Below, one piece after another: positions 12,503-48,307 of a stretch of 64,000 nt of DNA; position 1 is the stretch's first letter, and each line of letters begins with the position of its first letter. A program made the position numbers and the translations under genes. The notes below the pieces were generated by a model. It was not told the origin of the DNA, did not search any database, and worked only from the letters and a program-made list of their open reading frames with translations. The stretch covers positions 7,812,001 to 7,876,000 of the forward strand of contig NZ_CP146022.1 of assembly GCF_036967205.1 (NCBI RefSeq), read 5' to 3'. The stretch comes from Streptomyces sp. Q6. GTDB taxonomy: Bacteria; Actinomycetota; Actinomycetes; Streptomycetales; Streptomycetaceae.

Positions 12503-13688
12503 ATGACACGGAGCACGCGCCGGACGCGGCAGGCGGCGGTGGCCCTCGCGGCCGTCCTGACGGGCCTCGGCGCGGGCTGCGCCGCCCCGGCGGCGGGCCC
12601 TCGCGGCCGTCCGCCACGGCCTCCGCCTCCACCTCCGGGCACCCCGCGCCCGCGGCGGCCCGCGGCTTCACGCTCGCCGCGTCCGGCGACGTCCTGCCCC
12701 ACACGTCGATCATTGACGAGGCCAACGAGGACGCGGGCGGCGACGGCTACGACTTCCGCCCGATGCTCGCGGGCGCCAAGTCGGTGGTCTCGTCGGCGGA
12801 CCTGGCGATCTGCCACATGGAGACCGTGTACGGCGCGCCCGGCGACTACAGCGGCTACCCGGCCTTCACGTCCCCGCCCCAGATCGCCGCGGGCCTGCGC
12901 GCCACCGGCTACGACTCCTGCTCCACCGCCTCCAACCACACCCTCGACGACGGCGCGGACGGCATCGCCCGCACGCTCGGCGCGTTCGACCGGGCCGGTC
13001 TGCGGCACGCCGGATCGGGCCGCACCGCGGCGGAGGGCGCGGCCCGGCCCGGCTGCGCGCGGGCGGCGCCGAGGTCGCCCAACTCGCCTACACCTACGGC
13101 ACGAACGGCTACCCGCTCCCCAGGAACAAGCCCTGGGCGGTCAACTTGATCGACCGTCAGCGCATCATCGCGGACGCCCGCGCCGCCCGGAAGGCGGGCG
13201 CCGACGTCGTCGTCGTGTCCCTCCACTGGGGCACGGAGTGGCAGGACGAGCCGGACACCGGCCAGCTCACGCTCGGCAGGCAGCTCACCGCCTCCCGCAC
13301 GCACGGTCGCCCCGACATCGACCTGATCCTCGGCACCCACGCCCACGTCCCGCAGGCGTACGAGAAGGTCAACGGCACCTGGATCGTCTACGGGATGGGC
13401 GACCAGATCGCGGGGGAGATGTTCAACCACGACGGCGCCCAGGACGCCCGCGGCAACATGAGCACGATCGGCCGCTTCACCTTCGCCCCGCCGGCCCGCG
13501 CCGGCGAGCGCTGGCGGGTCACGAAGGCCGAGTTCGTCCCTCAGTGGTTCGACCTCGGCTCCGACCGCGTGGTGAACCTCAACCGCGCCATCGACCGAGG
13601 CGCCGACCTCGAAGGCGTCCGCGACGAGATCCGCCGGGTCGTCCTCGGCAGGGGCGCGGCCGAGGACGGCCTCGTCATGGGGAAGTAG
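12503..13688 (+). pseudogene. CapA family (poly-gamma-glutamate synthesis-like) lipoprotein, two frameshifts
   Basis: ATG 12503 follows GAGGAG by eight bases. The first frame encodes a lipoprotein signal ending LGAGC. At about 12598 the frame moves so that PSATASASTSG, GFTLAASGDVLPH and the CapA-like body (ICHMETVYG, TASNHTLDDGADG) continue in a second frame. At about 13042-13050 it moves again, to LRAGGAEVAQLAYTYG, VVVSLHWGTEW and LILGTHAHVPQAYE. Both breaks fall in CCC runs, and adding one C to each restores a 395-residue reading frame. CapA-type metallophosphatase-fold proteins act on the cell surface in capsule or wall polymer metabolism. It could be a true pseudogene or an intact gene with consensus errors. 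Confidence 0.85.
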
Positions 13689-13720
13689 ACGTCTGCTTCG
13701 CCGGCTCGGACCTCTTGCAC

Positions 13721-13743
13721 GGTGCCGCGGGTACCACGGCACC
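13721..13743. terminator. Hairpin between convergent genes
   Basis: The arms GGTGCCG and CGGCACC (7 bp, 9-base loop) lie between the CapA-like gene and the convergent VOC fragment. It is the only good inverted repeat in this gap; a shared terminator role is inferred. Confidence 0.4.
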
Positions 13744-13763
13744 CCTCGGAGGCGTTTGAGCGA

Positions 13764-14056
13764 CTACCGTGCGGTGTCGGAGCTGTGCGGGGGATCGAAG
13801 ACGCAGAACTCGTTGCCCTCCGGGTCGGCGACGACGATCCAGCGAAAGCCGTGTTCGCTGAGTTCCTCAGAGAGTCTCGTAGCGCCCAGCTGCTCAAGGC
13901 GGTTGACCTCGGGCACCAGGTCCGTGGTGCCGAAGTCGAGATCGAGGTGCATGCGGTTCTTGCCCTGCTTCGACTCCGGGACGTGTTGCAGGAGAAGGGT
14001 CGGTGCAGGACGGGGCCCGACCAGGCTCAAGTAGGGAGATCCGTGGAAGCCGGCGC
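13764..14056 (-). pseudogene. VOC (glyoxalase-like) protein, C-terminal half only
   Basis: The recognisable part runs from about GSPYLSLVGPRPAPTLLLQ to the stop. It contains KNRMHLDLDFG and VVADPEGNEFCVFD, the typical second half of Streptomyces glyoxalase-like domains. The preceding in-frame residues (up to 14189) are Arg/Gly-rich and unlike a VOC N-terminus. I also read the other two minus-strand frames up to the next gene and found no N-terminal half. About 55 residues appear to be missing, so this is probably a truncated relic. A short protein starting at ATG 13952 (MHLDLDFG) is possible but would lack half the fold. Confidence 0.6.
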
Positions 14057-14228
14057 CCTGGCCCGCCCGATCGATGCGCCGACCCCTGGGCACATCCGGT
14101 CGTCCCTGCTCGTGCGTGCGGTCACCGACTGACGCTGCCGCGTACGGCTGCGCGACGGCTGATGGCCGATCAGGGCGCACCCGTGACAAGAGGCACGGAA
14201 GGCGGCACGCCCCGCCGGAGTCGAGGGG

Positions 14229-14690
14229 CTACGGCACCACCGTGACGGGCCAGCGGCCCGCCTTCACCAGGCGGATGGCGACCGAGCCGACGATGCGATG
14301 ACCGGCCTGCTCCGAGGCGCCGACGACCACGGCGTCCGCCTTGAGTTCGTCGGCGGCGGTGACCAGGCCGTTGAACGGGTCGCCGCGGAACGTGTGGAAC
14401 TCCCAGCGCACGTCGTATATGTCCTTGACCCGCTCCGTCGCCTCCCGGATCTCCGCGATCAGGCCCTCCGCGATCTCGTCGGTCGTCTCCGCGACGGGCA
14501 CCCCGAGCGCGGCGCCCGCCGTCATCACGGGCTGCACATAGACGACGGCGAGCAGGGCGCGCTGACGCCGGGCGAGGCCTCCGGCGTAGGCCGCGGCGCG
14601 GAAGGAGGAGTCGGAACCGTCGACCCCGACCACGATCACCTTGGGCCCGTCGGTACCGCGCTCGAACTGGTGTGGCTGCTGTTCGGTCAC
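14229..14690 (-). CDS. Universal stress protein (UspA) family
   Basis: A 153-residue single-domain UspA-fold protein. The N-terminal strand is VIVVGVDGSDSSFRAA, with the Asp-Gly-Ser typical of nucleotide-binding members. The C-terminal GASEQAGHRIVGSVAIRL fits the ATP-binding G-2x-G-9x-G(S/T) pattern only loosely, ending with SVAIRLV...WPVTVVP. It is cytosolic, and its role in stress or dormancy is inferred from the family. The gene stands alone, upstream of the VOC fragment on the same strand. Confidence 0.9.
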   Translation of the reverse strand: MTEQQPHQFERGTDGPKVIVVGVDGSDSSFRAAAYAGGLARRQRALLAVVYVQPVMTAGAALGVPVAETTDEIAEGLIAEIREATERVKDIYDVRWEFHTFRGDPFNGLVTAADELKADAVVVGASEQAGHRIVGSVAIRLVKAGRWPVTVVP

Positions 14691-14849
14691 GCGCAGAGGC
14701 TAGCGGAAACCCGCAGGTGGGGGCAGCGCCGGGGCGGAGCGGATTTTTCGGTTCCGGGGCGCGGGCCGTCGCGGCTGAACGGGTGCTTTCACGCCGCCCA
14801 ACCGGTGGTGCTCTGCGCGGCGCCACCGGCGCCGTGTGACGGATGAAGC

Positions 14850-15700
14850 ATGAAAACGCATCAGATCGCGTCAGGGCGCCGGACCCTGCTCCGCGGCTTC
14901 ACCGCCGTCGGCCTGGCCGCACTCACCGGTTGCGCCGCCGCCGAGCGCGCGAGCGCCCCGCCGAGCGCGAGCCCGAGCGCCGCGCCCGCCGCGGGGCCGC
15001 AGGCCGCCCGCCCCTCGGGCCCTCCGCGTACCGGCTGCGGCCGATGGCCGGAAGCGGGCCCCAGCGTGCCGTCCCCGGCCGACTGGCGGTCCGTCACAAA
15101 CCCCTCCTCAGCATGGAGTTCGAGCGCGGCGACCGTGCCATGGTGCTCACGTTCGACGACGGGCCCGACCCCCGCTACACCCCGGACATCCTGCGCACGC
15201 TGCGCAAGCACGAGGTGCGCGCGATGTTCTTCGTGTGCGGCGAGATGGCCGTCGACAACAAGGACCTGCTGCGCGAGATGGCCGACGACGGACACGTCAT
15301 CGGCAACCACACCTGGACGCACCCGCTCCTGACCCGGATGACCCGCTCCGGCATGCGGCCCGAGATCGAGCGCACCTGCGAGGTCATCGAGGACACGGTC
15401 GGTGAACCGCCCGCCTGGTTCCGCGCGCCGTACGGGGCGTGGAACCGCGCCGCGTTCCGGCTCGGCGCCGACCTCGGCATGGAGCCCCTGGCCTGGACCG
15501 TCGACACCCTCGACTGGAACACCCCCGGCACCGACACCATCGTCACCCGCGTACTGCGCGGCGCGGCGCCCGGCGTCGTCGTCCTCAACCACGACGCCGG
15601 CGGCAACCGCTCGCAGAGCGTCTCCGCCCTGCGGGAGTACCTGCCGCGGCTGATCGACGACGGCTACCGCATCACCGTCCCGCGCCGCCGCGGCGTCTGA
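14850..15700 (+). pseudogene. Polysaccharide deacetylase lipoprotein with one frameshift
   Basis: ATG 14850 encodes a lipoprotein signal with a twin-arginine-like GRRTLLRG and lipobox LTGC, then an Ala/Ser/Pro linker. At the C run 15011-15014 the frame is lost. One extra C there joins AARP to LGPSAYRLRP and restores 283 residues. The catalytic NodB-homology domain is in the second frame: TFDDGPDPRYT (motif 1, catalytic Asp), HVIGNHTWTHP (motif 2, metal His residues), RAPYGAWN and LNHDAGGN. The family removes acetyl groups from wall polymers outside the cell. A start at ATG 14843 is in the domain frame but gives an Arg-rich N-terminus with no signal peptide. Confidence 0.88.
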
Positions 15701-15712
15701 TCCCCGCCGACC

Positions 15713-15741
15713 GGTGTCCGTGCGGTCAGCGCACGGACACC
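15713..15741. terminator. Perfect 12-bp hairpin between deacetylase and sortase genes
   Basis: The arms are GGTGTCCGTGCG (15713-15724) and its exact complement (15730-15741), with loop GTCAG. The sortase stop codon (15726-15728 on the minus strand) sits in the loop, so the stem encodes the last sortase codons. Its position between convergent genes suggests a bidirectional terminator. Confidence 0.75.
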
Positions 15742-16385
15742 AGACGGGCGAAGGCCACCACGTTGCCGTCGTAGCCGTTCTGCTTCGAGAAGCCGCCACC
15801 GCACGTGATGACGCGCAGCTCCGGCGTCCCGTTGGAGCCGTAGACGCGGTTGCCGGGGAAGTTCGCCTTCTCGAACACCTCGATCCCGTACACCTGGAAC
15901 ACGGCGGTCCTGCCGTCCTTGCGCCGGATCTCGACGTGGTTGCCCTTCTTCAGGGACCCGAGCCCGTAGAACACGGCCGGGCCCTGCATGTTGTCGACGT
16001 GCCCGACGACGACGGCCGTGCCCTTCTCGCCGGGCGAGACCGCGCCGGTGAACCAGCCCGCCAGGTTCGGGTCCTGCGGCGGTGGCGCGTCCACCCAGCC
16101 CTCCGCGTCCAGACCGACCTGGGTCACCGGGGCGTCCACCCGGATCGCCGGGATCCGCACCCGGTCCACCAACGAGAACGGCAGCGGCTGCGGCGCCTTC
16201 GACGTGGCCCACGTGGGCGTGCGGACGTCCGCGGCGGCGGCCGACGCGGGCTGCGGCGGGCCGATGTCGAATTCCCCCGAACCATTGCGGATCAGCGCGA
16301 GACCGGTGAGCAGCACCAGCGCTATCACGCCCCACGGCGCACGCTTTCTGGGCTGCTCCTCGTCTTCGAGCCTTGCGTAGGACAT
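15726..16385 (-). CDS. Class F sortase
   Basis: A 219-residue membrane-anchored transpeptidase. The short cytosolic N-terminus is followed by one helix (GVIALVLLTGLALI, about 19-32), then a linker. The sortase barrel has the catalytic His in VVVGHVDN, the catalytic Cys in RVITCGGGF, and an Arg in the final strand (VVAFARLVSVR). Class F sortases are typical of actinobacteria and attach proteins to the cell wall; their substrates are poorly known. Two paralogous exoproteins with C-terminal membrane anchors are encoded next door (16734 and 17397), so they are possible substrates. Confidence 0.93.
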   Translation of the reverse strand: MSYARLEDEEQPRKRAPWGVIALVLLTGLALIRNGSGEFDIGPPQPASAAAADVRTPTWATSKAPQPLPFSLVDRVRIPAIRVDAPVTQVGLDAEGWVDAPPPQDPNLAGWFTGAVSPGEKGTAVVVGHVDNMQGPAVFYGLGSLKKGNHVEIRRKDGRTAVFQVYGIEVFEKANFPGNRVYGSNGTPELRVITCGGGFSKQNGYDGNVVAFARLVSVR

Positions 16386-16733
16386 TCGCTCATCCCCTCT
16401 GGGCCCGGCGGCGAGACCGGGTCCGTTGCGCGTACCGAAACGCTAAGTCGACCGCGCACGACCAGCGACGGGGCGAGGGCGAACGGGTGCACCCGCAGCG
16501 TCCGTCCAGGGGGTGCGTGAGCCATCCGAGGTGCGGCCCTCAGGAAATTTCTGACGGTCTGTGACCTGCGGCAATATCGGCTTGTACGGAATTCCTTCGG
16601 TGTGTCGGCTCACCAGGACGGCCGATTCCCGAAATGCGGTCGTGCGCACGGCATCTGAGGGTTCGTCTGGGAGGCGTTCTCGCCGAAATTCCCGGGGACC
16701 GTTCCCCGGGGACGCCTTCCGCGGAGGATTTCC
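16386..16733. other. Gene-free divergent intergenic region (348 bp) with a leader hairpin
   Basis: This region between the divergent sortase and exoprotein genes holds no convincing gene on either strand. It is less GC-rich than its surroundings near 16545-16600. The only clear structure is a perfect 8-bp hairpin, CCCGGGGA / TCCCCGGG at 16691-16710 with loop CCGT. It lies about 25 bases upstream of the exoprotein start and its ribosome site (GCGGAGGA at about 16721), so it may lie in the mRNA leader. Confidence 0.6.
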
Positions 16734-17222
16734 ATGCGTACCACCCGTGCTCTGGCGGTGTCCGCCGTCGCCGTCGTCGCCGTCGGTCTCGCCGCCCCCG
16801 CCGCGTCCGCCTGGACGGACCCGTCCAACCTCACGGTCTCGCCCAGCGTGATCCCGCGCGGTGGTCAGGTGACGATCTCGGTCACCGGTACCAAGTGCCA
16901 GTCCAACAGCACCGCCACGTCGGACGCGTTCGGCACGGTGAACCTGAACAACGCGGGCGGCGAGCAGGCCAGCGCCAACGCCACCGTGCACAGCGACGCC
17001 GCCCCCGGCGCCCACGACGTCTCCGTGAGCTGCCAGGGCGTGCCGCTGACGCGTCCGGCCGCCTTCACCGTCATCCACGGTGGCGTCCGCGGTGGTCTCG
17101 GTGGTGCCAGCGAGACCGGCGCCACCTCCACCGACATGGCGATCGGCGGCGCGCTCGTCGCGTCGGCGCTCATCGGCGGCGGCGTGTTCTGGATGCGCCG
17201 TCGCGCGGAGGGCAAGGCGTAA
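16734..17222 (+). CDS. Secreted protein with C-terminal membrane anchor (sortase-locus exoprotein 1)
   Basis: A 162-residue protein. The signal peptide (MRTTRALAVSAVAVVAVGL...ASA) is cut near residue 26. A mature immunoglobulin-like stretch of about 85 residues (NLTVSPSVIPRGGQVTISVTG) has two Cys. A Gly-rich segment (GGVRGGLGGASETGA) leads to a C-terminal helix (MAIGGALVASALIGGGVFWM) and a basic tail MRRRAEGKA. This is sorting-signal-like architecture, but I see no LPXTG or LAXTG; SETGA is the closest. A paralogue is convergent at 17397-17903. The stop codon starts a 14-bp tandem repeat. Function is unknown; surface attachment is inferred. Confidence 0.85.
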   Translation: MRTTRALAVSAVAVVAVGLAAPAASAWTDPSNLTVSPSVIPRGGQVTISVTGTKCQSNSTATSDAFGTVNLNNAGGEQASANATVHSDAAPGAHDVSVSCQGVPLTRPAAFTVIHGGVRGGLGGASETGATSTDMAIGGALVASALIGGGVFWMRRRAEGKA

Positions 17223-17281
17223 GCAGCAAGGCGTCAGCGGCAAGGCATGACGAGCAAGGCATGACGAGCAAGGCGTAGTCG
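17212..17281 (+). repeat. 14-bp tandem repeat, five units, starting in the stop-codon region
   Basis: Units begin at 17212, 17226, 17240, 17254 and 17268, each starting GCAAGGC. Units 3 and 4 are identical (GCAAGGCATGACGA); the others vary at three to five positions. Unit 1 contains the end and TAA stop of the exoprotein gene. Because 14 is not a multiple of three, successive TAA/TGA/TAG triplets fall in different frames. Confidence 0.9.
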
Positions 17282-17291
17282 TACGAGACCT

Positions 17292-17322
17292 GCGGGCCCC
17301 GACCCCCCTTCGCGGGGCCCGC
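17292..17322. terminator. GC-rich hairpin
   Basis: The 9-bp arms GCGGGCCCC / GGGGCCCGC have a 13-base loop. It lies just after the 14-bp repeat and before a much longer hairpin, between the convergent exoprotein genes, so termination is the likely role. Confidence 0.6.
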
Positions 17323-17331
17323 GGCGCACGT

Positions 17332-17383
17332 GAACGGACCGGTGCCCCGAAGACAGCGTGGTCTTCGGGGCACCGGTCCGTTC
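17332..17383. terminator. Perfect 23-bp hairpin, bidirectional terminator
   Basis: The left arm 17332-17354 begins GAACGGACCGG and the right arm 17361-17383 is its exact complement. The loop is AGCGTG. It lies 13 bases from the stop of the convergent exoprotein gene. The length and perfection make it the strongest hairpin in the window. Confidence 0.85.
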
Positions 17384-17396
17384 GCTTCGGCCCGGG

Positions 17397-17903
17397 TCAG
17401 GCGTTGTTCTCGCCGGAGCGGCGCCGGGAGAAGTAGTACGCCGTGCCGAGCGCGCCCGTGATCAGGGCGGCGCCCAGGCCGATCTCCTGCATGTCGAAGC
17501 CGCCGAGGCTGCCGCCGACGCCGGCCCGGACCCCGTGATGGACAGGTGGGGGAGTCGGCTCGACGGGTCTGCCGCCCGCGACGGTGAGGTCGACGGTGCG
17601 GGACGAGCCGCCCGAGCAGGAGAACGTCACGGAGTACATGGCGCCCTGCTTGGCGTCCCAGTCCACGGTCCGGGTGGCCGAGCCGCTGTCCTTGCGGATC
17701 TTGACGCTGTCGAAGATGCCGGCGGAGACGGTGGTGTCGCCGCTGCACCCGCTCGCGTAGAGCGTCACCTGTCCGCCGGCGGCGATCGTCGTGGGCGCGA
17801 TGCTGACCTGGAACGGGTCGGACTCGGCCACGGCCGTCGGCGCGGTGAGGGTCAGGGCGGTGAGGGAGAGCGCGGCGGCGGAAGCGGCACGTATCGCCTT
17901 CAT
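17397..17903 (-). CDS. Secreted protein with C-terminal membrane anchor (sortase-locus exoprotein 2)
   Basis: A 168-residue protein. ATG 17903 follows GGAGGA; an upstream in-frame extension is Arg/Gly-rich and lacks a ribosome site. The signal peptide ends TAVA near residue 26. The mature domain starts FQVSIAPTTIAAGGQVTLYASG, clearly resembling the NLTVSPSVIPRGGQ region of the neighbouring exoprotein, and again has Cys residues. A Pro/Gly-rich spacer (GVRAGVGGSLGG) leads to a C-terminal helix (IGLGAALITGALGTAYYF) and tail SRRRSGENNA. The two genes are diverged paralogues facing each other across a shared terminator. Surface role unknown. Confidence 0.85.
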   Translation of the reverse strand: MKAIRAASAAALSLTALTLTAPTAVAESDPFQVSIAPTTIAAGGQVTLYASGCSGDTTVSAGIFDSVKIRKDSGSATRTVDWDAKQGAMYSVTFSCSGGSSRTVDLTVAGGRPVEPTPPPVHHGVRAGVGGSLGGFDMQEIGLGAALITGALGTAYYFSRRRSGENNA

Positions 17904-18044
17904 GGGGGTTCCTCCGGGTCCACGAGGAGCAGCTGCGGACCGGTTCCGCTCGCTTGGGACAAGCACCTCGATGACCGAAACGCTAGGGACACCCCCTTAC
18001 GGGCGCGATCGGTGTCGTGCGAACGGGGCATGTCCTTGGGCCGG

Positions 18045-18299
18045 TCAGGGGACCTCGTGGCGTGCTGACACCCCGTCGGGCCCCGCCGCGTGCCAGACGT
18101 GCGGACCGGCGCCGCGCCACTCGACGAGGTGCGGATCGTCGAGCGTCAGATCGGCCGAGCCGAGCCCGGCCCGGCCGAGCAGCCGGGTCAGATCCGCGTC
18201 GCTGTGCGCGAGTCCGACCGCCTGTCCGCGCACGGTCACGTGCCGCCCGCCCTCGGGGGCGGGCGGGTGGACGACGATCGGGGCGTGCCATGGGGTCAT
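18045..18299 (-). CDS. Small conserved hypothetical protein
   Basis: An 84-residue soluble protein starting MTPWHAPIVVHPPAPEGGR at ATG 18299. I recall similar short Streptomyces proteins that begin this way and contain VTVRG...LAHSDADL. It has no signal peptide or membrane segment. The end (VEWRGAGPHVWHA) looks like a terminal beta strand. It lies 24 bases downstream of the DUF4239 gene on the same strand and is probably co-transcribed. Function unknown. Confidence 0.7.
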   Translation of the reverse strand: MTPWHAPIVVHPPAPEGGRHVTVRGQAVGLAHSDADLTRLLGRAGLGSADLTLDDPHLVEWRGAGPHVWHAAGPDGVSARHEVP

Positions 18300-18323
18300 G
18301 CCCCCAGAGTGCTCCACACGGGG

Positions 18324-19085
18324 TCACCCCGCTCCCGGGAACAGCATCAGGAACGGCTCCGCGGTGGCCGCGATGCCACGGCTGTACGGCGCGTCGAAGT
18401 CCCAGATGAGGAAGAGCAGGAACGCGATCAGGGCGGAGAAGAGACCGGCGAGGATCAGCTCGCGGGCGGTGCGTCTGATCTGGAGCGCGAAGATCATGCC
18501 GATGGTGACCAGGCCGCCGACGATCAGGCCGAACCAGACCACCCCCGGCATCGTGGCGCCCGTGGAGTCGGCGCGGGCGTTGCGGGCGTCGTCGGCGGCC
18601 GTGACCTGGTCGACCAGCGGCTGGTAGGCCTGCGCCTGGAAGTCGTTGCGCGGCTCGAAATCGGTGACGTCGTGGCGCACCGTGTCCAGCAGCTCGGTGC
18701 CCTTCTGCGTCAGCTCGCCCCGCGAGCGCATGGCGTGCCACTCGGTCGTCACGACATGGCTGACATAAGCGTCGACATCCGCCCGGATGTGGTCCCGGAC
18801 GTCGGCCGGATAGACGCGGACGCGCTCGTGGATCTCGTGGAGCGCCTGCGCCTCGTTGCGCACGTGGTCCTGGGCCGCGCTGCGCGCCTCCCAGACCCCC
18901 GCGATGGCCAGGCCGAGGACGATGGCGTAGACCACGCCGATCATCATCGTCATGTACTCGATGACGTCCGGGGTCTCCGTGGGGTCGTCGTCCTCGCCGA
19001 TTCTTCGTTGCTGCAGGACCAGGACGACCAGGACGATCGCGCAGACGGCGACCATCGCGAGGGCGAGAACAAGCCATTCCGACAT
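18324..19085 (-). CDS. DUF4239 (bestrophin-like) membrane protein
   Basis: A 253-residue protein with an N-terminal membrane helix (VLALAMVAVCAIVLVVLVLQ), a second at about 45-65 (MTMMIGVVYAIVLGLAIAGVW), a soluble central domain at about 70-180, and two C-terminal helices (VVWFGLIVGGLVTIGMIFAL and LILAGLFSALIAFLLFLIW). This arrangement and the WEARSAAQDHVRNEAQAL segment match the DUF4239 family, sometimes called bestrophin-like; function is not established. It lies 18 bases downstream of the broken Pro-rich exoprotein gene. Confidence 0.85.
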   Translation of the reverse strand: MSEWLVLALAMVAVCAIVLVVLVLQQRRIGEDDDPTETPDVIEYMTMMIGVVYAIVLGLAIAGVWEARSAAQDHVRNEAQALHEIHERVRVYPADVRDHIRADVDAYVSHVVTTEWHAMRSRGELTQKGTELLDTVRHDVTDFEPRNDFQAQAYQPLVDQVTAADDARNARADSTGATMPGVVWFGLIVGGLVTIGMIFALQIRRTARELILAGLFSALIAFLLFLIWDFDAPYSRGIAATAEPFLMLFPGAG

Positions 19086-19103
19086 CGGTACCTCCACAAA
19101 GGT

Positions 19104-19704
19104 TCAGCGGGGGCGCAGGGCGGCGACCGCGAGCACCGCGGGTGCGGTGATGAGCAGGGTGAGCGTGACGATCGAGGGGCCGCCGCGCGGAGGCGCGCGG
19201 TGCACGGACGTGCGGTAGGCCGGATAGTGCACGGGCTTCGGGGACGGGTGGACGGACGGCGTCGGCCTGGGGCTCGGCCTCGGCGGAGGCGGCGGCTCGG
19301 GTGCCGGCGGTGGTGGCGCGACGGTCGGGGGCGCCGGGCGAGGAGGTGCCGGTGGGGCTGGTGTGGTCGGTGCGGCCGGAGGGGGTTCGGGGGCTCGGGG
19401 GTGGTGGGGCCGGTGGGGGCGGTACCGGCTTCTTGGGCGGTGGCGGTGTGGGCGTCGGCTTCTTCGGCGGGGGCGTGTGCGGCGCCGGCGTACAGCTCAC
19501 GCCGTCACCGGAGATCGCGACGGCGCCGCCCGTCGCGCCGCCGTCGACCGAGGCGTACGCGCAGCTGTCGGCCGGCGCGAGTAGAGGCAGGGCTGTCGCG
19601 GCCGCCACCGGGACACCGCACAACCAGGCGGTGGCGACCACCGCGAGAGCACGGGTGACCAGGGCGGCTCTGGCCCGCTGTGTTCGGAGCACGAGCGAGA
19701 TCAT
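19104..19704 (-). pseudogene. Secreted Pro-rich membrane-anchored protein, broken by a net two-base frameshift
   Basis: From ATG 19704 a signal peptide (ALVTRALAVVATAWLCGVPVAAATA) leads to a short Cys-containing domain and a very Pro-rich stretch (TPPPKKPTPTPPPPKKP). Beyond the three G5 runs at 19381-19401 (plus strand) the sensible sequence continues in another frame: Pro-rich, then PSVHPSPKPVHYPAYRTSV and a C-terminal helix (SIVTLTLLITAPAVLAVAAL) ending RPR at 19104. Adding one base to each of two adjacent C runs gives a continuous 200-residue protein, which I think is the true gene. It is then 18 bases upstream of the DUF4239 gene on the same strand. Confidence 0.7.
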
Positions 19705-19917
19705 GGACCGCCGTCCGGCGCCGCACGCAGGCTTTCGCCCCGAATACCCCGAAGGTGGGGCGCGGGGCGCCGCGGGTTTGCGCCCCCGCCCGTCGCTCGT
19801 CCGCGTCAAGAAATCTTCGGCCGCGTTGAACGCTCCCGCCGTCCCCGCCCGTACCTAGGGCCATGTGCGGACCCGACCGGGATCGCACAACACCGAAGCA
19901 ACATGCGGGAGTTGAAG

Positions 19918-20865: not shown

Positions 20866-20951
20866 CGCTCCCCGGAAGGTGCGCTCCAAGGAAGTGTCCG
20901 CCCCCGGGCGGATCCCTCGAAGGTAGAGTGTTCAAAGGATTTGGCGAATCG

Positions 20952-21004
20952 CCGGTCCGTTCCTCGCGTGACCACGTGATGGTCCCGCATCAGGAACGGA
21001 CCGG
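20952..21004. terminator. 13-bp hairpin with nested inner stem
   Basis: The outer arms CCGGTCCGTTCCT (20952-20964) and exact complement (20992-21004) enclose an inner GACCA...TGGTC stem. A T-rich stretch (GTTCTTTTCGG) follows on the plus strand. It is a likely terminator for the SCO0930-type lipoprotein gene. Confidence 0.7.
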
Positions 21005-21051
21005 TTCTTTTCGGTTGGGATACATATGGTTTCGGGGTGGTTTCGGATCGT

Positions 21052-21063
21052 TGCCAATTGGCA
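21052..21063. promoter_or_regulatory. 12-bp perfect palindrome upstream of the methyltransferase-rmdA pair
   Basis: TGCCAATTGGCA is a perfect palindrome about 115 bases before the methyltransferase start. A second, looser inverted repeat GTCAA-N8-TTGAC lies at 21094-21111. Both sit in the only gap that could hold the promoter for this pair. The regulator is unknown; a BldD-type site was looked for and not seen. Confidence 0.4.
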
Positions 21064-21179
21064 CGTGCCGGAGGCAGTGACCGAGAACGGACGGTCAATT
21101 TCCGTTTTGACTCGCTCCTTTGGCGGCTGATCAGTAGCCTCACCTCGAACACCGGCTCGCCTACGCCTTGGAGAGATAG

Positions 21180-24139: not shown

Positions 24140-24149
24140 GGTGGCCGCC

Positions 24150-24860: not shown

Positions 24861-24875
24861 GGGCGGGGGATCCTC

Positions 24876-38082: not shown

Positions 38083-38120
38083 CCTGAGCGCGTCCCTCGG
38101 CGCCGGTCCCGGCTCCCCTC

Positions 38121-38516: not shown

Positions 38517-38545
38517 TTGACCGGTCCGTTGGTCCATACCAAAAT
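38517..38545 (+). promoter_or_regulatory. Likely promoter with overlapping GntR-like operator
   Basis: TTGACC (38517-38522) is separated by 17 bases from CAAAAT (38540-38545), a fair -35/-10 pair. Within it, TTGGT-CCAT-ACCAA (38529-38542) is a perfect 5+5 inverted repeat. It closely resembles the TGGTCTAGACCA core of DasR-type sites. It lies about 85 bases upstream of the solute-binding-protein start. A bound repressor would cover the -10 element. Confidence 0.6.
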
Positions 38546-38625
38546 CCCAGCACACCCGTACGAGCCGTCGCTCGTCCCCCACGTCGGGCCGCCCTTCCCT
38601 GTCCGCAGGCAGAAAGTGACCCCCC

Positions 38626-39909: not shown

Positions 39910-39939
39910 CGCCCCGCCCCGCGCGCTCCCTCAGGCCCT

Positions 39940-40902
39940 TCAGGCCGCCGTACTGAGCGAGAGCGCGAACCTCCCCGCCTCGTCCGTCCACCAGTGCGCC
40001 AGGTCGAGCCCCGCCAGGGCGAGTTCGTCGCGCACGCCGTCGCGGCGGAACTTCGCCGACACCTCCGTGCGCAGCTCCTCGCCCGCCGTGAAGTCGACCG
40101 CCAGGTCGAGGGCCGGGATCTTCACCGTCTGCGCGGCGGACGAGCGCAGCCGCATCTCGATCCACTCCTGCGACGCGTTCCACCGGGCCACGTGGTCGAA
40201 CGCGTCGAGGTCGAAGTCGGCGCCGAGTTCACGGTTGACGACGGACAGGACGTTCTTGTCGAAGGCCGCCGTGACACCGGCCGCGTCGTCGTAGGCCGCG
40301 ACCAGCGTCGCCTCGTCCTTCACCAGATCGGTGCCGAGCAGGAAGAAGTCGCCGGGCGAGAGCAGGGCCCGTACGGACGCCAGGAACGCCGCGCGTTCGA
40401 CGGGCAGCAGGTTGCCGATCGTGCCGCCGAGGAACGCCACCAGGCGCGGCCCCGGCGTCGCGGGCAGCGCGAGGGCGGCCGTGAAGTCGGCGACGAGGGC
40501 GTGGACGGCGAGCGTGGGACGCTCGGCGAGCAGCGTCCGCGCCGCCCCGCGCAGCGCGCTCTCGCTCACGTCCACAGGGACGTACGTCGTCAACGCGGCG
40601 AAGGCGTCGAGGAGATGGCGGGTCTTGTCGGAGGAGCCCGAACCCAGCTCGACCAGGGTCCGCGCCCCCGTCGCCGCCGCGATCTCGGGGGCCCGCGCGA
40701 TGAGGATCTCGCGCTCGGCCCGGGTGGGGTAGTACTCGGGCAGCGTGGTGATCTCGTCGAACAGTTCGCTGCCGCGCGCGTCGTAGAACCACTTCGGCGG
40801 CAGGGTCTTGGGTGAACGGGTCAGGCCGTGCAGGACATCGGCGCGCAGCGCGGCGTCCGTGGCGTCCTCGGGCAGCGTGCGGGTCAGATCGAAGGTGCTC
40901 AC
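39940..40902 (-). CDS. egtD: L-histidine N-alpha-methyltransferase EgtD
   Basis: A 320-residue methyltransferase (DUF2260/EgtD family). GTG 40902 overlaps the egtC stop (GTGA). Conserved stretches are LPPKWFYDARGSELFDEIT, LPEYYPTRAEREIL, LVELGSGSSDKTRHLLDA for SAM binding, VAFLGGTIGNL, and the C-terminal VSAKFRRDGV...LAGLDLAHWWTDEAGRFALSL. It trimethylates histidine to hercynine, the first committed step of ergothioneine synthesis. Last gene of egtABCD. Confidence 0.95.
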   Translation of the reverse strand: MSTFDLTRTLPEDATDAALRADVLHGLTRSPKTLPPKWFYDARGSELFDEITTLPEYYPTRAEREILIARAPEIAAATGARTLVELGSGSSDKTRHLLDAFAALTTYVPVDVSESALRGAARTLLAERPTLAVHALVADFTAALALPATPGPRLVAFLGGTIGNLLPVERAAFLASVRALLSPGDFFLLGTDLVKDEATLVAAYDDAAGVTAAFDKNVLSVVNRELGADFDLDAFDHVARWNASQEWIEMRLRSSAAQTVKIPALDLAVDFTAGEELRTEVSAKFRRDGVRDELALAGLDLAHWWTDEAGRFALSLSTAA

Positions 40903-41653
40903 GCGGACGGCTCCTTGAGCGGGGTCAGCAGGACGTCGGTGCGGCTCGCCGCGAGCAGCGTGCGGTCGGGCACCTCGGTCCAGTGCGGATCGTCGTCGTA
41001 CGGTTCGGAGGCGACGACGGTGCGGCGGCCGGGTTCGGCGAGGTACCAGAGGGTGTCGCCCCAGGCGGTCGCGGCGATCGTCTCGCCGTTGGTCAGCAGG
41101 AAGTTGAGGCGCGCGTCGGGCGCCGCCGCCGCGACGTCGAGAACGGTGTCGGCCAGCGCCTGCCCCTCCTCGTCGCCCGCGCGCAGCCGGTGCAGGACCA
41201 GCGCCCACAGGAACGCGGCGTCGCAGCGGGCCTCCATCGACAGCAGATCGGTGGCCGGGAGCGTCGTCGTCAGGGACGCCAGGGAGCGCGGCCAGCCGGG
41301 CACCGCCCCGTTGTGGCTGAACAGCCACGGCCCGGACGCGTAGGGGCGGCGGCCGCCTCCCCGTCGGCCCCGGCGAGCGTCGCGTCGCGCACGGCGGCCA
41401 GGACCGCGCCCGAGCGGACCACCCGGGCCAGGTCCGCGTACGTCTGGTCGCCCCAGATGGGCACGGCCCGGCGGTAGCGGGCCGGTACCGGGTCGCCGTC
41501 CGCGTACCACCCCACGCCGAAACCATCGGCGTTGACCGTCCCGTGCCGCTGTCGGCGCGGCGCCCAGGACTGCCGGAACAGGCTGTGCGGCGCGGCGTCC
41601 ACGACCTCGCCGAGCGGCAACTCCGGCCCCAGATAGGCCAGATGGCGGCACAT
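40899..41653 (-). pseudogene. egtC: Ergothioneine amidohydrolase EgtC, one frameshift
   Basis: From ATG 41653 the protein starts MCRHLAYLGPELPLGEVV with Cys2 as the N-terminal nucleophile of a class II glutamine-amidotransferase fold, then NADGFGVGWYADG. After LAGADGEAAAAP the frame is lost at the plus-strand GGGG run 41344-41347. The continuation YASGPWLFSHNGAVPGW ... WGDTLWYLAEPG is in another frame to 40899. One added C on the coding strand restores 251 residues, the usual EgtC length. EgtC removes glutamate from the gamma-glutamyl hercynylcysteine sulfoxide intermediate. Since egtA, egtB and egtD are intact, I suspect a consensus error rather than a lost gene. Confidence 0.9.
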
Positions 41654-43026
41654 CAGGACACCTCCTGGGGATGGGCGTCGCGCGCCGTGCGGAAACCGGC
41701 GAAGATCTGCCGCCGGATCGGGTAGTCCCAGTTGCGGAACGTGCCCCGGCACGCCACCTGGTCCACCGCGAACGAACCGCCCCGCAGCACCTTGTGGTCG
41801 GGACCGAAGAACACCTCCGAGTACTCGCGGTACGGGTACGCCACGAACCCCGGGTAGGGCAGGAAGTCGCTCGACGTCCACTCCCACACATCGCCGATCA
41901 ACTGCCGTACACCGAGAGGTGATTCACCGAGCGGGTAGCTGCCGGCCGGTGCCGGGCGCAGATGGCGCTGACCCAGGTTGGCCCGGTCGGGCGTGGGGTC
42001 GGCGTCGCCCCACGGGTAGCGCATGGACCGGCCCGTCGCCGGGTCGAAGCGGGCCGCCTTCTCCCACTCCTCCTCGGTCGGCAGCCTGCGCCCGGCCCAG
42101 CGGGCGTAGGCGTCGGCCTCGTACCAGCTGACGTGCAGGACCGGCTCCTCGGGCGGCACGACCTCGGTCACGCCGAACCGCCTGCGCAGCCAGCGGCCCG
42201 CGTCGCGCCGCCAGAACATCGGCGCCCGCAGGTCGTGCTCGCGGACCATCGCCCAGCCCTCGGGCGCCCACCAGCGCTCGTCCTGGTAGCCGCCGTCGGC
42301 GAGGAACTCCATGTACGCGGCGTTCGTCACCGGTGTCGTGTCGATGTGGAACGGCGGGACGAGCCGGGCGTGCGCGGGGCGTTCGTTGTCGAGCGCCCAC
42401 GGCTCGGCGGTCGTCCCCATCGTGAACGGGCCGCCGGGGACGAGGACTTCGGCCGGTCCGCGGAACGGCGACTCCGGCGGCTCGGGGTCCGCAGCGGTGA
42501 GCGCCGCACCGCCCTTGCGGAGCTGATGGGTGATCAGCATCGTCTCGTCGTGCTGCTGTTCGTGCTGGGCGATCATGCCGAACGCGAACCCCGAACGGGT
42601 CAGCCGGTCGGCGCCGTCCGGCGCGAACGACGCCGCGTCCAGGATGTCCAGGGCCCGGCCGCGGACCTCGGCCGCGTAGCCGCGCGCGTCCCGCGGCGCG
42701 AGCAGCGGCAGCGTCGGACGCTCCGAGCGCGGGTGCTCGAAGGCGTCGTACAGCGGGTCGATCTCGGGCCGCATCGCCTCCCGGCCCGCGACCGCCCGCA
42801 GCAGCCACTGCTCCTCCTGGTTGCCGATGTGCGCCAGATCCCACACCAGCGGCGACATCAACGGAGAGTGCTGCGCGGTGAGGTCGGGCTCCTCCACACA
42901 GCTCGTGAGCAGGGTCGTGCGGCGCCGCGCGGCCTCCAGGGCGTCCGCCGCGCGCCGCCGGAGCGCCTCCGGCTCCACGGTGACGTGCTCCGCGTGGCGG
43001 GCAGCGTTGTTCTCCTCGGTCGTCAT
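41653..43026 (-). CDS. egtB: Hercynine oxygenase EgtB
   Basis: A 457-residue non-heme iron enzyme. The N-terminal DinB-like domain has LVWDLAHIGNQEEQWLLR and IAQHEQQHDETM, supplying the iron-binding His residues. The C-terminal formylglycine-generating-enzyme-like domain has FTMGTTAEPWALDNERPAH, VSWYEADAYARWAGRRLPTEEEWEKA and VLRGGSFAVD. It joins hercynine to gamma-glutamylcysteine, as expected for an operon that includes egtA. The start overlaps the egtA stop (ATGA) and its stop overlaps the egtC start (TGATG). Confidence 0.95.
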   Translation of the reverse strand: MTTEENNAARHAEHVTVEPEALRRRAADALEAARRRTTLLTSCVEEPDLTAQHSPLMSPLVWDLAHIGNQEEQWLLRAVAGREAMRPEIDPLYDAFEHPRSERPTLPLLAPRDARGYAAEVRGRALDILDAASFAPDGADRLTRSGFAFGMIAQHEQQHDETMLITHQLRKGGAALTAADPEPPESPFRGPAEVLVPGGPFTMGTTAEPWALDNERPAHARLVPPFHIDTTPVTNAAYMEFLADGGYQDERWWAPEGWAMVREHDLRAPMFWRRDAGRWLRRRFGVTEVVPPEEPVLHVSWYEADAYARWAGRRLPTEEEWEKAARFDPATGRSMRYPWGDADPTPDRANLGQRHLRPAPAGSYPLGESPLGVRQLIGDVWEWTSSDFLPYPGFVAYPYREYSEVFFGPDHKVLRGGSFAVDQVACRGTFRNWDYPIRRQIFAGFRTARDAHPQEVS

Positions 43027-44309
43027 GAGCGGACGGTCCTCCCCTGAGAGGTCGGATGCAGCAGATCGAGCGCGTCGTCGGCGGGGCAGCGGCCGCGCAC
43101 CACGTAGCGGTGCGTGAAGTCCGCGACCGCCCGCCGTACGCCCTCGTCCACGCCGAACCGGGGCAGCGCGTCGAGCGCCGCCGTGAAACAGGCCGTCGCC
43201 GCCTCCCGCAGCTCCGGGTCGGCGAGCCCGATCCGGGCCGCGTCCCGCCACAGCGGGTTGTGCGGCGCGGGCAGCGGCCCCGCCCGTTCCGCGAGCGGCT
43301 TGACGGCCCGGTACGCGGTCTCGGCGGCATGCGGATCGTCGAACAGCGCGGTGGTCACGGCGAGCGGCACCAGCCACCCGTCGTCGCCCGACTGCGCGTC
43401 GATCATGCGGAGTTCGAGGTGACCGCGCGGCCGCACCGGCGGGAACAGCGTCGTGAGGTGGTAGTCGAGATCCGAACGGGTCGGCGGGCGCGGCGCGCCG
43501 CCTCGGATCCACTCGCGGAAGGACAGGCCGTCGGGCACCTGCCACGGCCCCTCGTCGCTGCGCACGCACATCACCGGCGCGTCGAGCACGTGCCGCGCCC
43601 AGGCGGCACGGGGCTCGGCGCGGAGCGGCGGCGCACCCGAACGCCCGGAGTCGATCCGCTCCCACAGCAACTGCCGCGTGGAGCGCCAGCCCGTGGAACG
43701 ACCGGACAGCATCGGGGAGTTGGCGAACGCGGCGACCAGGACGGCGCCGAGCAGATGGGCGAGCAGCCAGCGCCGCCCGTGCCCGAGCGGGCCCGGCTCC
43801 TCGTAGCCCGCGTCCAGACAGACCTGCACCGACGCGGAGGAGCACATCATGGAGCGGCCGGCCGGACCGGCGCGGTCCAGCGACGCTTCCAGGGCGTCGT
43901 AGCGGGGTTGTCTGAGCACCCGCCTCGGCGGACGCCACGGATCGGTGCCGTGGCCCGAGAGGACGAGACCGTGGTCGCGGAGTGCGGTGCGGACGGCGGT
44001 CAGATCGGCCCGCATGGCCGAGACGCATTCCGTCAGCGTGGCGGCCGGGAGCGAACTCAGCTCCAGCTGTCCGCCGGGTTCCACGGTGAGCGCCGAGCGC
44101 AGGGGCAGGGCGCGCAGTGCGACGTACGCCGCGTCGAGCCGTTCCGGAGCTAACGGGAGCCGCGGGCGATGCGGCTCGTGGACGATCCACTCCAGTTCGA
44201 CCCCGACGGTGCCGGGCGGCCCCGTCTTGAAGCAGATGCCCCGTACGAGGGCTTCCACCTCCGGCTCGGTGACCAGCTCACCGAGGTTCGTACAGTCTCC
44301 CTCGCTCAT
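43023..44309 (-). CDS. egtA: Glutamate-cysteine ligase EgtA
   Basis: A 428-residue member of the GCS2 family. Visible motifs are VGVELEWIVHEPHRP (glutamate/ATP region), ALTVEPGGQLELSS, MCSSASVQVCLDAGYE, LLGAVLVAAFANSPMLSG and GHLELRMIDAQSGDD. It makes gamma-glutamylcysteine, the sulfur donor used by EgtB. ATG 44309 starts MSEGDCTNLGELV; longer extensions are not plausible. First gene of egtABCD, so the promoter should lie in the 200-base gap shared with the divergent PARG-like gene. Confidence 0.93.
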   Translation of the reverse strand: MSEGDCTNLGELVTEPEVEALVRGICFKTGPPGTVGVELEWIVHEPHRPRLPLAPERLDAAYVALRALPLRSALTVEPGGQLELSSLPAATLTECVSAMRADLTAVRTALRDHGLVLSGHGTDPWRPPRRVLRQPRYDALEASLDRAGPAGRSMMCSSASVQVCLDAGYEEPGPLGHGRRWLLAHLLGAVLVAAFANSPMLSGRSTGWRSTRQLLWERIDSGRSGAPPLRAEPRAAWARHVLDAPVMCVRSDEGPWQVPDGLSFREWIRGGAPRPPTRSDLDYHLTTLFPPVRPRGHLELRMIDAQSGDDGWLVPLAVTTALFDDPHAAETAYRAVKPLAERAGPLPAPHNPLWRDAARIGLADPELREAATACFTAALDALPRFGVDEGVRRAVADFTHRYVVRGRCPADDALDLLHPTSQGRTVRS

Positions 44310-44513
44310 GCCGGAGACCTCCTGATCCTTGTGCCTTCCATGGTCCCTGGCGGAGACCATGCCGTCGATTCGACCCGGGTCCGGGCCGCTTCCGGGCAAT
44401 GCCGCGTACCACCCAAGACGGTCACGGCCGATCGCACAAGAGGGCGAAATTCTGTTGCCCGAGCGGTCACCGGGCGCACACGATGGGTTCATGAGCACGA
44501 CGGGGGAGCGGGC

Positions 44514-45347
44514 GTGAGCGCCCGACTGCGCGAGATCGCGCAGAGCACGCGGCGGATCGTGGAGGCGGGCGGGTACCCGACCGGGGACGGCCGCACGGTG
44601 GTCCTGGCCGACGCCGTGGCGCGGGCCCGTGCGGGCACGCGGATGTACGGCCCGGACCCGGTGGAGACACCGCCCGCGCCGATCGGAGCGGCGGGATCGG
44701 TCGAGGTCACGGGGGAGAGCAGCCTGGAGGCGGCGCGCCGTCTGACGGGCGAGCGGCCCGACCCGGTCGCCGTCCTGAACTTCGCCTCGGCGCGCAACCC
44801 GGGAGGCGGATTCCTGAACGGGGCACAGGCCCAGGAGGAGGCCGTCTGCCGGTCCTCCGCGCTGTACGCCTGCCTGATCGAGGCCCCGGAGTTCTACGCC
44901 CACCACCGCGCCGACCGGGACGTCTTCTACACCGACCGGGTCATCCACGCGCCGGGCGTGCCCGTGTTCCGCGACGACCGCGGCGCGCTCCTCGACACCC
45001 CGTACGAGGTCGGCTTCCTGACCTCACCCGCGCCGAACGCCGGGGTGATCGCCCAGCGCACGCCGGAGCGCGTCCCCGAGATCCCCGGGGTGCTCGCGTC
45101 CCGCGCCGAGCGCGTCCTGGAGGTCGCGGCCGCGCACGGATACCGGCGGCTCGTGCTCGGCGCCTGGGGCTGCGGCGTGTTCCGCAACGACCCCGCCCAG
45201 GTCGCCGAGGCGTTCCGGGCGCTGCTCGCGGGCCGCTTCAGCGGCTACTTCGACCACGTCGTCTTCGCCGTCCTCGACCGCACGAAGGACGCGGCGACAC
45301 GGCAGGCCTTCGTCCGGGTCCTCGGCGCCGGTCAGCTCCAGCCGTAG
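44514..45347 (+). CDS. TIGR02452 family protein (microbial poly(ADP-ribose) glycohydrolase-like)
   Basis: A 277-residue macrodomain-type protein with GTG start as written. The PARG signature is NPGGGFLNGAQAQEEAVCR (about 88-106), with GGG followed by Q-E-E, the catalytic glutamates. Later GVIAQRTPE and LVLGAWGCGVFRNDPAQVAEAF match TIGR02452. The family removes ADP-ribose from targets. A nine-codon ORF (ATG 44491, MSTTGERA) ends on the start codon. Adding one G to the G5 run 44502-44506 would instead fuse that ATG in frame as MSTTGGAGVSARLRE, so the true start may be 44491. Divergent from egtA. Confidence 0.88.
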   Translation: MSARLREIAQSTRRIVEAGGYPTGDGRTVVLADAVARARAGTRMYGPDPVETPPAPIGAAGSVEVTGESSLEAARRLTGERPDPVAVLNFASARNPGGGFLNGAQAQEEAVCRSSALYACLIEAPEFYAHHRADRDVFYTDRVIHAPGVPVFRDDRGALLDTPYEVGFLTSPAPNAGVIAQRTPERVPEIPGVLASRAERVLEVAAAHGYRRLVLGAWGCGVFRNDPAQVAEAFRALLAGRFSGYFDHVVFAVLDRTKDAATRQAFVRVLGAGQLQP

Positions 45348-45796
45348 CGCTCCCGCAGCCGCAGCACCACCGTGTTGAACCGGCCGCGGTCCAGGGCGCA
45401 CGCCTCGCGCCGCATCCCGCGCTCATGCACCCGAAGGACCCGGTCCAGGTCCACCCACGAGTCGCGTCCTTCCCTGTCCCAGGGGCCCGAGCCGAGCGCC
45501 ACCCACTCGCGGTCGCGGTCGTGCCGCTTGCTCGACAACTGCACGGCGAGCAGTGTGCCGGCCGCCTCGCGGGCGACGACGAGCACCGGCCGGTCCTTGC
45601 CGCGCCCGTCGTTCTCCTCGAACGGCACCCACGTCCAGACGATCTCGCCCGGGTCGGGGTCGCCGTCGTGCGCCGGCGCGTACTCGGTACGGACCCTCCC
45701 CACCTGGCGCGGCTCGGCCTCCACCGTGGCGGTGTCGCCGCCGCGGCCCGGGTGGTCGTACACATGGTCATCCGCAAAGGCAGTCACGCGGGTCAC
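45332..45796 (-). CDS. PemK/MazF-family toxin-like protein
   Basis: A 154-residue protein from GTG 45796 (GTG 45787 also possible). After about 45 acidic residues comes the PemK/MazF fold: PGEIVWTWVPFEENDGRGKDRPVLVV (strand-loop-strand with the usual E..GKDRPVLV), AVQLSSKRHDRD, and SWVDLDRVLRVHERGMR. Classical family members are endoribonucleases paired with an antitoxin. No antitoxin gene is adjacent on either side, and the N-terminal extension is unusual. It could be an orphan toxin, a regulatory RNase, or controlled from elsewhere. The 3' end overlaps that of the PARG-like gene by 16 bases. Confidence 0.8.
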   Translation of the reverse strand: MTRVTAFADDHVYDHPGRGGDTATVEAEPRQVGRVRTEYAPAHDGDPDPGEIVWTWVPFEENDGRGKDRPVLVVAREAAGTLLAVQLSSKRHDRDREWVALGSGPWDREGRDSWVDLDRVLRVHERGMRREACALDRGRFNTVVLRLRERYGWS

Positions 45797-45858
45797 GTTA
45801 GAGCCTGGACGGCCCAATCCGCGCGGCGGGGCCGCCGGACGACCCGCAGGCTCGGCAC

Positions 45859-46899
45859 ATGGCACGACGAATACACCCGATCGCCCTGTCCGCCCTGGCC
45901 GTTCTGCTCGCCCTCACCACCGCGGCGCCCGCCCGCTCGGAACCGCCGCCCCCGCGCACCGTCTCGGCCTGGCTCCCGTACTGGGACCAGGAGGCCGCCT
46001 ACCGCAACGCGCTGGAGCACGCCGCGCAGATCCGCACCATCAGCCCCTTCTGGTACGAGACGAAGTCCGCGACCCGCGTCGACGGGCACCCCGGAGCGGG
46101 CGAGCGCCGCATCATCGACGGTCTGCACGCGAAGGGCATCGAGGTCGTCCCGACCGTCATGGAACAGATGAAGCCGGGCGCCCTGGCCGCCGTCCTGACC
46201 AGCCCGGCCCGTCGGGCCGAGCACATCGACGCCCTGCTCGCCGTCGTCCGCAGCCGCGCCTACGACGGCATCGACCTCGACTACGAGACCATCGCGCCGA
46301 CCCCGGAAGCGGAGTACCGGACGGTGCGCGACGGATACACCGCGTTCGTCACCGGGCTCTGCGACCGCCTGCACGCCCTGGACAAGAAGTGCTTCGTCAC
46401 CGTCACCCCGCAAACCCGTACCACGGGCCGCATTTGGGACTACGCGAAGCTGGGCGCCGCGGCGGACCGGATGCGCATCATGGCGTACAACCTCCACCAC
46501 GCCGAAGGTGAGCCCGGTCCCGTGTCCACGCCGCAGTGGTACGACGTGATCCTGGCCCACGCCACCGCCGAAGTCCCGCGCGCCAAGCTGGAGATGGGGA
46601 TCCCCGCCTATGGCTGGGACTGGGCGGTCGGCAGCACGTCCCGCGCGAAACACGTCACATGGAAGGACGCCGAGGCGCTGCGCCGCAAGGTGAAGGCGCC
46701 CTACGCCCTCGACCCCGACTCCCGCACCCCGCACTTCACGTACAAGGACGGCCAGACGCTCCACACCGTCTGGTACCAGGACGCGCGCGGCACCGCGGCC
46801 CACCTGCCCGCGCTGCGCACGTACAAGGTGCCCTACACCGTCCTGTGGGCACTGAACTTCGAACAACCGGAACTCTGGCAGACCCTCGCCCGGGGCTAG
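45859..46899 (+). CDS. Secreted glycoside hydrolase family 18 protein
   Basis: A 346-residue protein. The signal peptide (MARRIHPIALSALAVLLALTTAAPARS) is followed by a GH18 barrel with the DxxDxDxE catalytic signature YDGIDLDYE (about 134-142). Further features are FVTVTPQTR, MRIMAYNLHHAEGEPGP and LEMGIPAYGWDW. The sequence resembles the YaaH/SleL-like branch of GH18, which cleaves beta-1,4 N-acetylglucosamine bonds in peptidoglycan or chitin; there is no LysM or carbohydrate-binding module. The stop overlaps the convergent amidase stop. Confidence 0.92.
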   Translation: MARRIHPIALSALAVLLALTTAAPARSEPPPPRTVSAWLPYWDQEAAYRNALEHAAQIRTISPFWYETKSATRVDGHPGAGERRIIDGLHAKGIEVVPTVMEQMKPGALAAVLTSPARRAEHIDALLAVVRSRAYDGIDLDYETIAPTPEAEYRTVRDGYTAFVTGLCDRLHALDKKCFVTVTPQTRTTGRIWDYAKLGAAADRMRIMAYNLHHAEGEPGPVSTPQWYDVILAHATAEVPRAKLEMGIPAYGWDWAVGSTSRAKHVTWKDAEALRRKVKAPYALDPDSRTPHFTYKDGQTLHTVWYQDARGTAAHLPALRTYKVPYTVLWALNFEQPELWQTLARG

Positions 46900-48307
46900 A
46901 ACGCCTCCGGCCACCGCTCGAACCACCGCTGGTCCGCCTCCAGTTGGGCCGCGAGCGAGATCAGGAGCGGCTCGCTGTGGGCGGGCCCGAGGAGTTGCGC
47001 GCCGACCGGCAGACCGTCGCCGACCCGCCCCGCCGGCACGTTCACCCCCGGCCAGCCGAGCACGTTCCACGGCCAGGCGTACGGGCACGCGGCGATCATC
47101 GCGCGGTCCGTGCGCCAGCCGCTGAGCCGCGCCAGATCGCCGACGCGCGGCGGGGAGCGGCCGTCGTCGGCGCGAGCACCACGTCGAAACGGTCGAAGAG
47201 CGCCCCGACCCGGTGGTGGAGCGCCGCCTCCGCCCGCTTGGCGACCCGCAGCGGCGCCCCGCCGAGGAGCCGACCCATCCGGGCGGCCTCACGGGTGCGC
47301 GGGTCGAGCCGGGCCGGATCGGGCACCCGGTCCACCCACTCGGCTATCCCGGCGGTCGCGCGCGGCACGAACGCGAGGCCGATCTGCCCGTACCGCGGAT
47401 CCGCCTCCTCCACCTCGTGGCCGAGTGCGGCCAGCCGCTCCGCGAGCGCCACCACCCGCGACCTGACGGCCGGTTCGAGCCGTTTCGGCGTGGCCGTGAA
47501 CGGCATCCGCAGCGACAGCGCGATCCGCAGCCGCCCCGGCTCCCGCCGCGCCGCCTCGCCGGCGCGCACCGGCGCGGGCCGGTGCGGATCGTCCGGGTGG
47601 CTGCCGCTCGCCGCGTCGAGGAGCAGCGCGGCGTCCGCGACGGTGCGGGCCAGCGTCCCGTTCACCGTGATGCCGTGGAACGCCTCCGCCCACGGCCACG
47701 TCGAGATCCGGCCCCGCTGCGGCTTGATGCCCACCAGATGCGTCCACGCCGCGGGGATGCGCACGCTGCCCGCGCCGTCGGAGCCGAGCGCCGCCGGGAC
47801 CAGGCCCGCGGCGACGGCCGCGGCGGAACCACCGGACGAGCCGCCCGGGGTGTGCGCGGGCGCCCATGGATTGCGGGTGTCACCGAAGGCGGGCCCCTCG
47901 GTGAACGGCCACTGCCCCAGCTCGCACGTGTTCGTCTTGCCGACGACGATCGCGCCCGCCGCACGCAGCCGCCGCACCGCCTCCGCGTCCTCGGTCCGGG
48001 GCGGGAACTCTCCGGCGCAGCCGAACGCCGTCGGCTCCCCGGCCACGTCCATGTCGTCCTTCACCGCCACCGGCACGCCGAGCAGCGGCAGCCGCCCGCC
48101 CGCCGCGAGCGCCCGGTCCGCCGCGTCGGCCTCGGCGAGCGCCGCCTCGGCACGGACCCGCCGGAACGCGTTCAGGACCGGCTGCGTCCTTTCGATCCCG
48201 GCCAACGTCCGCTCGACCAGCGCGCGCGACGACACCGTGCCGTCCGCCAGCGCCCGTGCCGCGTCGGCCAGGCCGAGCGGCGTCCCGGTGACCCCTGACT
48301 TCCTCAT
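46896..48307 (-). pseudogene. Amidase signature family enzyme, one frameshift
   Basis: From ATG 48307 the protein has the full amidase-signature region: PVAVKDDMDVAGEPTAFG (catalytic Lys), TPGGSSGGSAAAVAAGLVPAALGSDGAGSVRIPAA (Ser-cisSer-Ser), then GIKPQRGRIS. After FDVVLAPTTAAP the frame is lost at the plus-strand GGGG run 47152-47155. The C-terminus (AACPYAWPWNVLGWPGVNVPAG) continues in another frame to 46896. One added C restores 470 residues, the usual length. These enzymes hydrolyse amides such as indoleacetamide or fatty amides. The active-site half is intact, but the conserved WPGVNVP substrate region is out of frame as written. Confidence 0.88.

Follow-up and report, generated by a model that had tools for sequence, protein, structure and literature searches.

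Five genes on the chromosome of Streptomyces sp. Q6, one of them for a step of ergothioneine synthesis, are interrupted by changes of reading frame at or near short runs of C or G, and the question they raise is whether the organism has lost these genes or whether its deposited sequence misrepresents them. The window, by which we mean the whole stretch of 64,000 nucleotides that was analysed (G000:C1:7812001-7876000), belongs to a genome of 8.95 Mb in two contigs that is 99.99% complete. The best named matches of its EgtB are all from Streptomyces or close kin, the closest being S. longispororuber PBR1 (87%) and Streptomyces sp. SID14478 (86%). The original prediction held that each of the five genes had lost frame through one missing C or G per break, and that this uniformity pointed to undercalled homopolymers in the consensus as opposed to random pseudogene decay. 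Here, we compare the window with its relatives and with a sample of 1.664 Mb of the same genome, made up of the window, 19 spaced stretches and three core blocks.

Reading frames of the five genes

Stop-free frames from relatives, ten orthologue frames per gene, were aligned to the DNA of the window by a method that permits changes of frame (Table 1). Separately, a database of 109 loci (L003-L111) was searched for relatives that carry both sides of a break in one open frame, a locus being counted only where both sides matched at >45% identity.

Table 1. Split genes of the window and the frame changes within them (window positions).
Feature	Positions	Strand	Basis
CapA-like (PGA_cap) lipoprotein gene, read in three frames	12503..13688	+	PF09587 pieces; orthologue alignment
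CapA-like second missing-base change, interval between signal peptide and domain, place uncertain	12577..12635	+	4/10 frames; coding model
CapA-like frame change, missing-base kind, beside CCC runs	13036..13050	+	orthologue frames; coding model
Polysaccharide deacetylase gene, signal region and domain in different frames	14850..15700	+	PF01522; relatives
Deacetylase missing-base frame change at CCC/CCCC runs	15003..15018	+	9/10 orthologue frames
Proline-rich exported protein gene, C-terminal hydrophobic segment	19104..19704	-	single-frame homologues in L253-L256, L024
Proline-rich gene, net frame change at G5 runs	19381..19406	-	two missing or one extra base
egtC, ergothioneine biosynthesis amidohydrolase, two frames	40899..41653	-	TIGR03442
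egtC missing-base frame change at G4 run	41341..41347	-	10/10 orthologue frames; coding model 41343
Amidase gene, two frames	46899..48307	-	PF01425; relatives
Amidase missing-base frame change at G4 run	47152..47155	-	10/10 orthologue frames; coding model 47172

In egtC, positions 1-101 of TIGR03442 are matched in one frame and 109-251 in another, so divided that each half (152.5 and 133.9 bits) falls under the model's cut-off of 218.65; the adjacent egtA, egtB and egtD are whole. Every orthologue frame changes at either 41341 or 41347, the two positions flanking the G4 run at 41343-41346, and mean identity to the relatives is 78.5 before the break and 76.6 after it. The two pieces of the amidase, searched separately, match PF01425 at 2-377 and 399-444, the change coincides exactly with the G4 run in all ten frames, and mean identity is again similar on the two sides (79.2 and 80.1).

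When its pieces are searched separately, the CapA-like gene matches PF09587 at 1-119 and, in the following frame, at 127-254. All ten orthologue frames place a missing-base change at 13036-13045, and a frameshift-aware coding model (described below) calls one at 13045, in agreement with the break predicted at 13042-13050. The break predicted near 12598 has a less certain position: it appears at 12587-12635 in four of the ten frames, the coding model puts a missing base at 12577, and the site is a low-complexity linker, where the alignment of some of the remaining frames does not begin before 12592. Just downstream, on the minus strand, a short open frame at 13764-14189 has one weak homologue (L063, 43% over 76 residues); the coding model takes only 13764-13952 as coding, and this may be a remnant or a further break.

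In the polysaccharide deacetylase, PF01522 (5-122) is matched in the second piece and no family in the first, because the break falls between signal and domain. The one orthologue frame that lacks the change had been cut and starts at 15020, behind the site, and two of the nine informative alignments contain one extra change each (14848 and 14899) that the rest do not support. The coding model made no call at 15003-15018, its coding here starting at 15113.

In relatives of these four genes, both sides of the break lie in one open frame at 10 of 10 loci for the CapA-like gene, 5 of 5 for the deacetylase, 77 of 77 for egtC and 40 of 41 for the amidase, so that the comparison with orthologues proposed as a check found the genes intact in nearly all of them. 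The exception is L070 (Actinobacteria bacterium OV320), the sole one among the 41 matched relatives whose amidase also extends over two frames.

The proline-rich gene differs. Its frame change is real, and the best-scoring frames of L253-L256 and L024 place a single change at 19383-19395. The sign is that of a surplus base, equivalent modulo three to two missing. The alignment penalizes two missing bases above one extra, and its preference for the latter therefore does not discriminate between them; the frame from L096 requires two changes, opposite in sign. An extra base is likewise what the coding model calls in this gene (19254), only at the lowest penalty reported for the window. It is possible that two G5 runs are each short by one base, as originally predicted, but this is an assumption: the shift at the G runs stands, its net sign fits gain and loss equally, and the gene lends no support to uniform loss. 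The claim of one C or G lost per break thus holds for the CapA-like gene, the deacetylase, egtC and the amidase, and does not carry over to the fifth gene. Nor do the repaired lengths, which become multiples of three, count as independent evidence, as this follows from restoring the frame.

Missing and extra bases across the sampled genome

The coding model is three-periodic and can step over a single base that is lacking or surplus; its training set comprised 60 stretches, those of relatives among them, and the window. When single bases were deleted at random by simulation, the model recovered 45-59 of 80 in relatives, placing them a median of 2-3 bases off, and 303 of 536 (57%) in the Q6 genome. 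In the 1.664 Mb of Q6, missing-base and extra-base calls stood at 77 to 15 at a penalty of 18, 62 to 9 at 24 and 44 to 7 at 30, as against 14 to 13, 8 to 9 and 4 to 2, respectively, in 1.2 Mb of relatives. Per megabase, missing-base calls are thus four- to eightfold in excess of those in the relatives, and extra-base calls show no excess between the same two samples. Penalties of 10 and 14 were left out of these counts because the relatives also gave many calls: at 10, complete relatives yielded 28 missing-base and 18 extra-base calls over 0.4 Mb, and drafts 49 and 10. In draft relatives, the laxest setting of another run made 18 missing-base and 4 extra-base calls over 0.4 Mb. The relatives G009 and G012 (L136-L142) each gave three extra-base calls at a penalty of 20, in 80 and 60 kb, possibly errors of opposite sign in those assemblies.

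The window itself contributed three missing-base calls at a penalty of 18, and five together with one extra-base call at 14. This rate is similar to the one found elsewhere in the sample, and the five genes accordingly form no special cluster. Missing-base calls are distributed over the sampled chromosome in nearly Poisson fashion (84 bins, mean 0.92, variance 1.19). One call made at a penalty of 14 only, a missing base at 62990 on the minus strand (62102-63534), separates a cupin-like protein from a BD-FAE alpha/beta hydrolase and may mark a gene boundary instead of a break.

Missing-base calls lie near C or G runs. A run of at least four occurs within 10 bases of 45 of the 77 calls, compared with 400 of 2000 (20.0%) GC-matched coding sites (odds ratio 5.6, p 6e-13) and with 13.7% of 4000 random coding sites; the matched sites are slightly lower in GC (0.784 vs 0.797 at the calls). 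Both C runs (26) and G runs (20) on the coding strand are involved, and local GC over 100 bases is higher at the calls (0.797) than at recovered simulated deletions (0.722). The affected runs are only 3-5 long as deposited, and by arithmetic about half a percent of such runs are hit. General undercalling, expected to appear as a shortage of long C/G runs, was not borne out, as a census of run lengths found no general shortage: runs of six number 236 per Mb, within the range of the relatives (167-390). In keeping with this, the putative errors would be sporadic.

An orthologue-based check was consistent in direction. Of 277 proteins from a syntenic 400-kb block of the relative G013, 131 have an orthologue in the sampled stretches, and these alignments contain five missing bases and one extra in the Q6 genome, against none in 134 comparisons in the reverse direction; one of the five missing sites is called extra by the coding model. 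In-frame stops occur in the best alignments of three of the 131 (one lies past a frame change, the other two where the N terminus aligns poorly) and of three of the 134, leaving no convincing nonsense mutation among the 131 orthologues. As the relatives are whole at the broken sites and missing bases are in excess across the sampled genome, the breaks exceed chance.

Origin of the frame changes

We consider it highly probable that the breaks are consensus errors of the deposited sequence, left by homopolymer undercalling that went uncorrected when long reads were assembled. Long single-molecule reads were very probably the basis of the chromosome; their consensus would now and then drop one base from a short run of C or G, chiefly where the surrounding DNA is very rich in GC, and polishing with short reads would not have mended every such run. 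We infer both the full run in the molecule itself and the sequencing platform. What would be expected of undercalling is what we see: an excess of missing over extra bases, a location at homopolymers and intact orthologues, together with a spread regardless of gene function over the 1.664 of 8.95 Mb covered.

There is published precedent. A Streptomyces PacBio assembly is reported to have retained 205 indels after Quiver, nearly all in G/C homopolymers, that were corrected with Pilon (PMC4832174), and other PacBio Streptomyces assemblies are described as needing 70, 295 and 335 corrections, the majority of them insertions of one base into homopolymers (PMC6923854); homopolymer-length errors are also given as the most common residual errors of long-read-only assemblies (PMC8812927). 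As far as these accounts go, the Q6 sequence resembles the PacBio Streptomyces assemblies in lacking single bases from G/C runs of a 71-73% G+C chromosome, at tens per Mb and with genes split as a result (PMC4832174, PMC6923854). It differs in that the estimated number is somewhat higher and is known here from the deposited sequence alone.

It is very improbable that the breaks are instead real and recent loss-of-function mutations, by which the strain or its ancestor would have acquired numerous new pseudogenes, perhaps as an indel mutator. The frame changes are truly in the deposited DNA, no indispensable domain is cut among the scanned calls, and single-base deletions are known in Streptomyces genes: a real one-base deletion is reported in cmlI of S. 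venezuelae ATCC 21113, where the corrected gene allowed some chloramphenicol to be made (PMC7357120). The breaks in Q6 likewise involve one base missing from a Streptomyces gene; unlike cmlI, which by that account was tested by gene correction, they affect many genes at once and are all compatible with consensus error. Against mutation stand the strong asymmetry towards missing bases with no extra-base excess, the lack of a convincing nonsense mutation in the 131 orthologues, the preservation of sequence beyond the breaks, and a scale of hundreds that would be extraordinary. The signature of pseudogene decay, a mixture of indels with nonsense mutations and lost conservation, was not found: extra bases are not in excess and identity is kept past the breaks. 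That the strain has truly and recently lost single bases from C/G runs by the hundred, as an indel mutator or as a lineage in sudden gene loss, seems to us more doubtful still. Programmed frameshifting, or phase-variable runs that switch genes on and off, would account for the location of the breaks at homopolymer runs, but is the least credible reading, as the runs are just 3-5 long, the affected genes share neither function nor place, and relatives carry them in a single frame, unlike what would be expected of a conserved slippery site or long tract.

The case for undercalling is upheld by evidence that was not available when it was first proposed: the genome-wide missing-base excess, the concentration at C/G runs and in locally GC-rich DNA, the intact orthologues and the published precedent. 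The proline-rich gene by itself shows no loss.

Scale and affected genes elsewhere

Some 58 of the calls in the 1.664 Mb are in excess; corrected for the 57% recovery, they correspond to about 60 breaks per Mb or about 550 genome-wide, a rough figure that may be off by a factor of about two. Hundreds of Q6 genes, egtC included, may thus be annotated as fragments or pseudogenes, and it should not be concluded from the present assembly that genes or ergothioneine synthesis have been lost or that secondary metabolism is degraded.

Both sides of 27 calls, picked mostly by length and not at random, were searched against family models. One model continues in order across two frames in ten of them: a protein kinase, a spermine-synthase-like protein, ComEC, CobN, an AfsR-like regulator, DnaX, a formaldehyde-dehydrogenase-like protein, a PIG3-like quinone oxidoreductase, a methyltransferase (weakly) and an NsdA-family regulator. 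In dnaX (L214:6246-8425, minus strand), NF005846 is matched at 1-442 in one frame and at 462-627 in the next, so that the gene is cut behind its conserved N-terminal part; the break in the MurJ gene lies ahead of the domain. Among the scanned calls, we found no break that clearly abolishes an indispensable function, and the viability of the strain is consequently no proof of error. Three of the 27 pairs match different, usually neighbouring families (LacI with an ABC transporter, and a response regulator with a kinase twice), and look like gene boundaries, hence false calls; the remaining pairs point neither way. At L228:12082-13478, on the minus strand, two pieces of a PcaR-type regulator lie in two frames with overlapping model ranges, and are perhaps tandem genes.
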